From: Astrocystis sublimbata
Taxonomy: Eukaryota > Ascomycota > Sordariomycetes > Xylariales > Xylariaceae
Length of the DNA: 64,000 bases
Direction of reading: 5' to 3'
Assembly (NCBI GenBank): GCA_022453515.1
Contig: JAJNNY010000011.1
Coordinates: 1 to 64,000, forward strand
The number at the start of each line of letters is the position of its first letter. Position 1 is the stretch's first letter. The notes beneath the pieces were generated by a model. It was not told where the DNA came from. It searched no databases and was given only the letters and a program-made list of their open reading frames with translations. The position numbers and the translations under genes are program-made. Below are positions 4,239-12,969 of this stretch, one piece after another.

Positions 4239-4371
4239 GCCCGGTTAGCTCAATCGGTAGAGCGTGAGACTCTTAATCTCAAGGTTGCGGGTAAGCTTGC
4301 ACTCGGAGAAAAAAAAATTCTCACTTGCCTGTTACTAACCCTAGTGCTAGGTTCGACCCCCGCATCGGGCT
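4239..4371 (+). tRNA. tK(CUU): tRNA-Lys(CUU), interrupted in the T arm
   Basis: After removal of bases 4291-4350 the sequence folds into a complete cloverleaf. The acceptor stem is GCCCGGT with ATCGGGC (seven pairs, one G-U). The D arm is GCTC/GAGC. The anticodon stem is TGAGA/TCTCA with loop CTCTTAA, so the anticodon is CUU. The T arm is GCGGG-TTCGACC-CCCGC and the discriminator is U. There is no intron at the usual 37/38 position; the insertion lies inside the 5' strand of the T stem. The A box is intact, and a B-box match GGTTCGACCCC survives at 4350-4360 because the intron ends in G. A hairpin (4385-4403) and T-runs (from 4416) follow. The gene would supply lysine for AAG codons. The alternative, a tRNA pseudogene disrupted by a chance insertion, is unlikely because excision restores the stem exactly. 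Confidence 0.9.
4291..4350 (+). other. Spliceosomal-type intron inside the tRNA-Lys gene
   Basis: The insertion is exactly 60 bp. It begins GTAAGC, contains the optimal branch motif TACTAAC at 4333-4339, and ends GCTAG, 12 bases after the branch A. This matches the size and signals of the protein-gene introns in the same window. A nearer AG (4343-4344) lies only six bases past the branch A and would not restore the stem. The exact joining point is ambiguous by one base because both sides carry G, but the GT-AG reading restores GCGGG paired to CCCGC. Confidence 0.85.
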
Positions 4372-4384
4372 CAATTCCTGATGC

Positions 4385-4403
4385 CTCTCAGTTCAACTGA
4401 GAG
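4385..4403 (+). other. Perfect hairpin downstream of tRNA-Lys
   Basis: CTCTCAGTT and AACTGAGAG are perfect reverse complements around a single C, starting 14 bases after the tRNA end. It may form in the trailer of the primary transcript. Its function is unknown. Confidence 0.6.
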
Positions 4404-4415
4404 TTGCAACCCATC

Positions 4416-4431
4416 TTTTTCTCTTTTTTTT
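4416..4431 (+). terminator. T-runs, candidate Pol III terminator for tRNA-Lys
   Basis: A run of five T (4416-4420) and a run of eight T (4424-4431) lie 45-60 bases past the tRNA 3' end. Either would be sufficient for RNA polymerase III termination. Their distance leaves a fairly long trailer. If the gene is instead transcribed by Pol II, these runs have no such role. Confidence 0.5.
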
Positions 4432-11850: not shown

Positions 11851-12969
11851 ATGTCTTCTTCTACCAAGACAGCAAGAGATCATCCGGCCGCCAGAATCCC
11901 CCTTCCCAGCAGCGACTCCCAACTTCGTAAACGTGCTTGCCTGAATCTTATACGACTACCTCCTACATATACGACTGAATCTCCTCAAGTTACATCAGAT
12001 GATGTCAAGAACAGCGTCGTACAACCTGGGCCCATGCATAAGGAATTGCATCTCGGAATGTTTGAGATTGGCAAGCCACTTGGTAAAGGCAAATTCGGGC
12101 GCGTATACCTCGCAAGGCACCGCGAATCTGGCTATATCTGCGCTCTCAAGATGCTGAAAAAGGAAGAGATTACACGTGAGAAGGCAGAAATGCATGTCAG
12201 ACGCGAAATCGAAGTTCACAGCAACCTCCGACATCCGGGTATCCTTGGTTTCTATGGTTGGTTTCATGACTCACGCCGGATTTTCATCATCCTCGAATAT
12301 GCCGCTGGGGGCGAATTATACAAGGTTCTTCAACGAGAAGGAACTTTTTCAGAACGGCACGCGGCGCAATGCATCGCCCAAGTCGCGTCATCTTTGATAT
12401 ACCTTCATGGCAAGAACGTCATGCATCGCGATATGAAGCCTGAGAATATCCTGGTAGGACTTTACAGAGAGCTGAAACTGGCCGACTTTGGCTACAGTGT
12501 CCATGCACCTAGTAATAGGAGGGACACTCTATGTGGCACTTTGGACTATTTACCTCCAGAGATGATAGGATCTCACCAGCCGAGTTATACTAAAGCTGTC
12601 GACTTATGGACCCTTGGCGTTTTAACGTACGAGTTTCTTACTGGCGAAGCCCCGTTCGAAGACGGTGTTGCCATGACCCAAAGGCGGATTGTGAAAGGGG
12701 ATATGAAGCCTTTACCCAGTCACCTATCCTCGGAAGCACTAGATTTTGTTCACTCGGTAAGCACCTTTCTTGTTTGCTATTCCCAGCGTTTATTCCCAAA
12801 GAGAAGAGAAGAGAAATCGATTCGTATCGCTCTTAAACCCTACTATCGTTTTTGTTGCTAAAGCTAACCTATTGATAAGTTGCTTGTTTTGGATCCATCG
12901 AAACGATTGCCCCTTCAAGATGTTTTTAGTCACCCCTGGATCGCGAAGAACTGCAACCTGTCAAGGTGA
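11851..12969 (+). CDS. Aurora-type serine/threonine protein kinase (divergent)
   Basis: Exons 11851-12756 and 12880-12969 give 331 residues. The 123-bp intron has CTAAC near its 3' end, and splicing restores [12 protein letters not shown] at the end of the kinase domain. The domain spans about 71-325: glycine loop GKGKFGRVY (79-86), Lys100, HRDMKPEN (192-199), DFG (212-214), and an activation loop [16 protein letters not shown] with candidate phospho-Thr226. The [10 protein letters not shown] start, the [12 protein letters not shown] loop and HPWI end are Aurora/Ipl1 signatures. Differences from typical Auroras are HRDM for HRDI, DFGYSV for DFGWSV, and Asp in place of the residue before the phospho-Thr. 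The N-terminal region is only 70 residues and lacks obvious low-complexity extensions. Auroras act in spindle assembly and chromosome segregation. Whether this is the sole Aurora of the genome or a second, diverged copy cannot be decided from the window. Confidence 0.88.

Follow-up and report, generated by a model that had tools for sequence, protein, structure and literature searches.

Layout and copies of a split tRNA-Lys(CUU) gene

The window, a stretch of 64,000 nucleotides that forms the start of contig C13 of the Astrocystis sublimbata assembly, carries a complete tRNA-Lys(CUU) gene at 4239–4371 (Table 1). The D arm, anticodon arm and acceptor stem are all intact, and the T stem is split at nt 52/53 by an insertion that reads GTAAGC...TACTAAC...GCTAG. 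The A box and B box, which we assigned by their consensus sequences and take to be the internal promoter elements, are likewise intact in the DNA; the B box is unbroken because the last G of the insertion replaces nt 52, its first base. An initial annotation of this DNA had described an intact anticodon loop and a 60-bp T-stem insertion with GTAAGC, TACTAAC and TAG, and both descriptions agree with the sequence. Rfam gave only a weak match on the window (36.8 bits, 4239–4308) in which the insertion was taken for the T arm, and ARAGORN, run on the window with the bacterial code, did not report the gene. Elsewhere in the window, a complete protein kinase domain (219 bits to Pfam Pkinase) is encoded by an open frame at 11851–12861, which looks Aurora-like by eye.

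Table 1. Features of the split tRNA-Lys(CUU) gene in the window and the intron-bearing U6 genes of the same genome
Feature	Position	Strand	Basis or remark
Putative upstream TATA element, TATAAA	4199–4204	+	40 bp before tRNA
tRNA-Lys(CUU) exon 1, nt 1–52, anticodon CTT	4239–4290	+	same in all 8 copies found
A box, TAGCTCAATCGG	4246–4257	+	read from sequence, in exon 1
GGTTGC, 5′ strand of predicted stem P1 (pairs with trailer 4406–4411)	4283–4288	+	folding
60-nt GT–AG intron in T stem, between nt 52 and 53	4291–4350	+	sequence, copy comparison
Branch-point motif CTAAC; A at 4338, 12 nt before intron end	4335–4339	+	motif test
B box, GGTTCGACCCC	4350–4360	+	unbroken in DNA
tRNA-Lys(CUU) exon 2, nt 53–73	4351–4371	+	sequence, copy comparison
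GCATCGGG, tRNA nt 64–71, 5′ strand of predicted hairpin H2	4362–4369	+	folding, pairing test
Conserved 3′ trailer (41–53 nt across 8 copies)	4372–4415	+	copy comparison
CCTGATGC, H2 strand in trailer	4377–4384	+	pairing test
Covarying trailer hairpin H3	4385–4403	+	covariation test
GCAACC, P1 strand in trailer	4406–4411	+	folding
TTTTT, putative Pol III terminator	4416–4420	+	T-run search
Intron-bearing U6 snRNA genes	C1:11589–11744 and C130:152546–152701	−	U6 search

We searched the 42.6-Mb assembly (189 contigs) for further copies with the first 25 nt (up to three mismatches), the anticodon arm and the whole tRNA, queries that a divergent tRNA-Lys(CUU) gene could escape. Eight full copies were found, and all 73 exon bases are the same in every one. 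Five are split, always at nt 52/53, with introns of 60 nt (C13, the window), 60 nt (C88), 55 nt (C24), 61 nt (C102:448548) and 67 nt (C117); three are unsplit (C1, C102:1309997 and C189). The split copies on C24, C102 and C117 were retrieved with the tRNA sequence alone, without intron signals in the query. The joined exons of the window gene are the same 73 nt as the three unsplit genes, which bears out the initial claim that removal of the insertion exactly restores the T stem (GCGGG/CCCGC). A partial copy (nt 23–72, 94% identity) with an altered anticodon loop adjoins the unsplit gene on C189 (C189:45805–45854).

C13 and C88 agree over their first 22.3 kb, one being inverted relative to the other (99.4% identity in an alignment of 9,316 bases and 100% in one of 1,001), and we therefore gave up treating them as two separate loci. 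Their split copies are probably one locus assembled twice at an unmerged contig overlap, a true duplication being the alternative. With C13 and C88 counted as one, there are thus four split and three unsplit loci.

A pattern made of GTAAG, GTGAG or GTATG, 35–65 nt and AGGTTCRANYCC had nine, two and two matches in this genome, of which four, one and none, respectively, were the Lys genes. Among the eight non-Lys matches, the five with GTAAG (two of them overlapping) were read, in four stretches, and no split T arm was seen in these. One non-Lys match (L068) is a tRNA-like gene with its GTAAG located elsewhere than at the T-arm site.

Splice signals, transcription signals and the U6 genes

All four distinct insertions start with GTRAG (GTAAG or GTGAG) and end with AG at the same site. 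A single YTRAY motif is present in each, and the distance of its A from the intron end is 12, 12, 14 and 12 nt; a random sequence matched in composition has a 3.2% chance of holding a YTRAY with its A at 12–14 nt. In the window intron the first AG after the branch-point A is 6 nt away and the second, at 4350, 12 nt away; the C117 intron also has an early AG, 3 nt from its branch point. The TAG at 4350, named as acceptor in the initial annotation, is the likelier choice because the early AGs are probably too near the branch point. Pairwise identity among the four introns is 52%–60%, against 48%–52% for shuffles, and being so near the shuffled level it leaves little common to them beyond their ends. 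Their predicted folding is unremarkable (z −0.5 to +1.3).

Canonical eukaryotic tRNA introns lie at nt 37/38 and are removed by the tRNA endonuclease. The insertions lie at nt 52/53 and not at that position, and an in-register test at their junctions found no complete bulge-helix-bulge (BHB) motif: The outer helix has one of four pairs in all four introns and at most two of four in any register, and the central helix reaches four of four in C117 only. We rejected a BHB intron for lack of a complete motif, and a pseudogene with a random insertion in view of the conserved signals and exons. That four independent introns share one site, keep their splice signals and leave the exons unchanged supports the reading put forward in the initial annotation, namely, that the T arm of tRNA-Lys(CUU) holds an intron of the spliceosomal and not of the endonuclease type.

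In all eight Lys copies, the first run of four or more Ts (T4) after the tRNA 3′ end comes 41–53 nt downstream, directly behind the trailer, and no T4 run lies inside any of the eight gene bodies. We rejected the absence of T4 from the introns as evidence for Pol III, its joint chance being 0.37. The comparison set comprised 22 genes: the 20 highest-scoring of 55 non-Lys tRNA matches, which cover few isoacceptors, the tRNA-Gly of the window and the tRNA that neighbours the split copy on C102. In 21 of these 22 the first T4 is 1–22 nt downstream; the distance in the exception is 138 nt. This exception, a tRNA with a long variable arm (L026:4603–4683, minus strand), adjoins the split C102 copy; another tRNA gene apparently lies behind it, and the two are possibly co-transcribed.

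U6 is a Pol III transcript, and spliceosomal introns are present in the U6 snRNA genes of fission yeast and other fungi. The assembly has four U6 matches: two full genes with 57-nt introns (Table 1), one unsplit divergent gene and one partial match below the cut-off. Both introns start with GTAAG and end with ACAG. Their branch points, TTGAC and CTAAC, each lie at a distance of 12 nt from the intron end, both contain a B-box-like element (AGTTCGAACCC or GGTTCGAACCC) in the intron, and the conserved U6 sequence is restored when the introns are removed. The unsplit divergent gene (C135:326268–326365) has GTTTAGC replacing GATTAGC, followed by a T-run, and may be a variant or a relic. Because U6 genes here carry such introns, a Pol III transcript with a spliceosomal intron would not be foreign to this cell. 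The initial annotation had suggested that Pol II transcription was perhaps required; given Pol III-like boxes and terminator and U6 genes with like introns, our reading of the sequence is that Pol II need not be invoked for the split genes.

A conserved 3′ trailer and its predicted fold

All eight copies, split and unsplit, carry a conserved 3′ trailer starting CAATTCCYGRTGC; because the unsplit genes have it too, the trailer would not serve splicing only. The 17-base form of the start motif, with at most one mismatch, occurs in the genome at these eight places only, and at two mismatches the matches are noise (57 in all vs. 33 for a reversed control). Compared between split loci, the first 40 nt of the trailer are 72%–82% identical and the 60 nt upstream of the gene 55%–68%. 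A relaxed-threshold Rfam search of the trailer returned only the tRNA and miRNA-like and plasmid-RNA matches below gathering scores, which we judged to be chance. Scans of IMG/VR for the trailer gave no matches and then four, none with the trailer; by eye, three of the four are tRNA-like genes of phage-like contigs or their neighbours, and one lacks a clear tRNA.

The 3′ part of the tRNA and the trailer share one predicted fold in all eight copies, made up of P1, a small T-loop hairpin, H2 and H3. P1 joins GGTTGC (tRNA nt 45–50) to GCAACC by five to six pairs, and H2 joins tRNA nt 64–71 to CCYGRTGC in the trailer. The fold has z-scores of −3.6 to −5.8 (p ≤ 0.004 in every copy against 1,000 trailer shuffles); for 21 other tRNA genes, tested alike with a 42-nt flank, the range was −1.3 to +1.9. 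In H3, all 36 pairs are kept over six distinct sequences, with two-sided changes in three of six columns, a covariation score equalled by two of 720 permutations. The parts of the trailer that face the tRNA are fixed except for two changes, both of which preserve G-U pairs. The H2 geometry gives eight of eight pairs in all eight copies (six to eight of them Watson-Crick) and at most six pairs, with at most four Watson-Crick, in the 21 other tRNA genes.

Taken by itself, the trailer forms a single, longer predicted hairpin (z −1.4 to −4.3), and H2 and P1 may therefore not be what selection keeps; adding the tRNA part to the trailer raised the z-score in all eight copies. Low acceptor-stem probability was rejected as evidence for the alternative fold because it is not specific, values below 0.05 being seen also in 24%–44% of shuffled trailers and in seven of 21 other tRNA genes (45 nt of flank). 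In the unspliced C117 transcript the predicted probability of the acceptor stem is still 0.52. The three unsplit copies also have a leader hairpin, GCAATC...GATT plus the first two tRNA bases (GC), ∼39 nt upstream (z −3.7 to −4.9 in all three). By eye it is absent from the split copies; if formed as modelled, it would also compete with the acceptor stem.

A scan of a prokaryote genome collection for a tRNA end followed by GGGCTCAATTCC yielded four contigs, of which L098 was set aside as a bacterial tRNA and L099 as a chance match in coding-like DNA. The others, L096:3901–4006 and L097:7120–7208, are tRNA-Lys(CUU) genes with canonical-site introns, T-runs and an unsplit T arm, deposited in a metagenome-assembled genome (MAG) labelled Deltaproteobacteria CPC1 (NYXK01). 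Since the genes have canonical-site introns and T-runs, we take the two contigs for eukaryotic, and they are probably eukaryotic, perhaps fungal, contamination of the MAG. Pfam ADH, GH20 and P450 domains lie near the tRNA genes and do not settle the organism; the MAG record set (7.3 Mb) holds only two such 5′ ends.

The trailers of L096 and L097 have the same start, which the search pattern partly fixed; they also have a hairpin, and their T-run comes after 38 nt. The bases next to the start track the sequence of their own tRNA: ACCTCGGG pairs with CCCGAGGT in eight of eight Watson-Crick pairs. Two tRNA bases, both in the H2 strand, differ from the Astrocystis copies: nt 64 is A instead of G, and nt 66 is C instead of A. 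Each change is matched in the cloverleaf partner (nt 50, C to T, for nt 64; nt 7, T to G, for nt 66) and in the trailer (C to T and T to G, respectively). A three-way match is the pattern expected of two mutually exclusive folds under selection. It is suggestive only, because it consists of two changes in two lineages, P1 is missing from the L096/L097 fragment and the minimum-energy fold there does not contain H2.

Proposed processing of the split genes and competing readings

Taking together what is seen in the sequence (the split, splice signals, identical exons, promoter boxes, T-run and conserved trailer), we read the locus, with a probability of about 0.75, as a nuclear Pol III tRNA-Lys(CUU) gene with its T stem interrupted at nt 52/53 by a spliceosomal (GT–AG, branch-point) intron. 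Pol III transcription, splicing itself and end trimming are the steps that we infer. Pol III would transcribe from the internal A box and the whole B box to the T-run at 4416, and the precursor would extend from the leader through exon 1, the intron and exon 2 to the trailer. Removal of 4291–4350 would fall to the spliceosome, as in the intron-bearing U6 of the same genome, and RNase P and tRNase Z would then trim the product to a normal tRNA.

Other readings compete with this one. Pol II could transcribe the split copies as small noncoding genes, with the intron cut by the spliceosome and the tRNA either excised or left as a fossil domain. TATA-like elements lend this some weight, lying at −40 (window), −45 (C24) and −43 (C117), that is, in three of the four distinct split loci, unlike those of the unsplit Lys genes (−72 to −74) and those found in 18 of the 22 other tRNA genes (mostly −53 to −69); none was found upstream of the split C102 copy. 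Intact A and B boxes, a T-run at a fixed place right behind the trailer in all eight copies, and the fact that the gene class with such introns here, U6, is a Pol III class count the other way and make Pol II transcription unlikely. It is very improbable that the tRNA splicing endonuclease cuts out the insertions at a noncanonical site, in the way known from red algae, nucleomorphs and archaea. Noncanonical T-arm introns are removed from tRNAs in other eukaryotes, according to PMC4090602, and the C117 intron has a full central BHB helix, but the other three introns do not, the outer helix has a single pair in register throughout, and GT–AG ends and branch points would be left unexplained.

The split copies could also be silent or misprocessed relics, with tRNA-Lys(CUU) made by the three unsplit genes only. 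The initial annotation had weighed its reading against several intact intron-less tRNA-Lys(CUU) genes beside a silent split copy; half of that picture, the three identical intact genes, is found, and because they exist the split copies may be dispensable. T-arm insertions in single eukaryotic tRNA gene copies are, moreover, usually taken for pseudogenes, according to PMC4090602. Against decay, all 73 exon bases are kept at four distinct loci despite near-random intron similarity, and splice signals, trailer and T-run persist at each; gene conversion could explain the alike exons but not the splice signals. We consider the relic reading improbable and favour the spliced Pol III gene.

The role of the trailer is less firmly read. 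As modelled, its pairing with tRNA nt 64–71 and nt 45–50 (P1, H2 and H3) would exclude the acceptor stem and the cloverleaf. Our preferred guess, a tentative one held at well under even odds, is that the trailer holds back the trimming of the ends, and export, for as long as the precursor is not ready. It is quite conceivable, if still short of an even chance, that the complementarity to the tRNA is incidental and that the trailer is only a simple hairpin helping Pol III to terminate, or a small RNA in its own right: It folds as a hairpin by itself, the second eukaryote also has a hairpin adjoining the T-run, and in Neurospora tRNase Z is known to free a small RNA from a tRNA precursor (PMC3547838). 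The complete H2 pairing in the eight copies and in both genes of the second eukaryote, beyond anything in the 21 controls, and the effect of the tRNA part on the z-score argue against incidental complementarity. A more far-reaching and doubtful proposal adds that most Lys(CUU) loci need the spliceosome and a bistable precursor, in which the trailer keeps nt 64–71 off the acceptor stem and trimming and export follow refolding, so that lysine-tRNA supply would be coupled to splicing capacity. It places the trailer before the T-arm intron in age, because two genes of another eukaryote combine the trailer with a canonical-site intron.

Among known systems, the U6 introns share with the Lys introns a GT–AG and branch-point arrangement inside a short Pol III gene, a 12-nt branch-to-AG distance, a link with the B box and, at 57 nt, a similar length. 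They differ in that the Lys host is a tRNA with its T stem split, and in that the B box lies at the 3′ border of the Lys intron and inside the U6 intron. Canonical eukaryotic tRNA introns are likewise short introns in a tRNA gene, whereas the Lys introns have another site (52/53), spliceosomal signals and no complete BHB motif. Noncanonical BHB introns of archaea, nucleomorphs and Cyanidioschyzon also include T-arm insertions (PMC4090602); the Lys introns differ from those described there in splice signals, in length and in lacking a complete BHB motif. In Neurospora, RNase Z frees the small RNA milR-4 from a tRNA precursor (PMC3547838). Like the Lys trailer, milR-4 is a structured RNA attached to a fungal tRNA, and Pol III is its probable polymerase; unlike it, milR-4 sits with alanine tRNAs, the Lys trailer being a small hairpin and at most a putative small RNA.

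Spliceosomal introns in Pol III genes are thus already known from U6; such an intron in a tRNA gene is apparently new, in that we found no report of one in an incomplete search of the literature. That novelty is qualified in that mRNA-type introns may already have been reported in pre-tRNA-Lys(CUU) of euascomycetes. The conserved Lys(CUU) trailer, with its predicted ability to pair with tRNA nt 64–71, is new here. No spliceosomal tRNA-gene intron is described in the available portions of PMC3978253, PMC13130702, PMC4022394, PMC6461891, PMC4090602, PMC3547838 and PMC8450103, and words beginning "spliceosom" are absent from those portions of the review of noncanonical tRNA introns (PMC4090602) and of the tRNAscan-SE 2.0 paper (PMC8450103). 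tRNAscan-SE 2.0 looks for noncanonical introns in archaeal mode (PMC8450103). Introns of the kind proposed here would explain genes overlooked by tRNA finders.

In teaching, the splicing of tRNAs and that of mRNAs are presented as distinct systems. If RNA data confirm the reading given here, two processing machineries that are usually kept apart meet on one tRNA, and a tRNA that needs the spliceosome would, if true, tie tRNA supply to spliceosome activity. The split Lys gene, with its B box at the intron border, would illustrate a way for a Pol III gene to acquire an intron and still keep its internal promoter whole. Competition between a trailer and the acceptor stem would, if true, be a new kind of precursor control.
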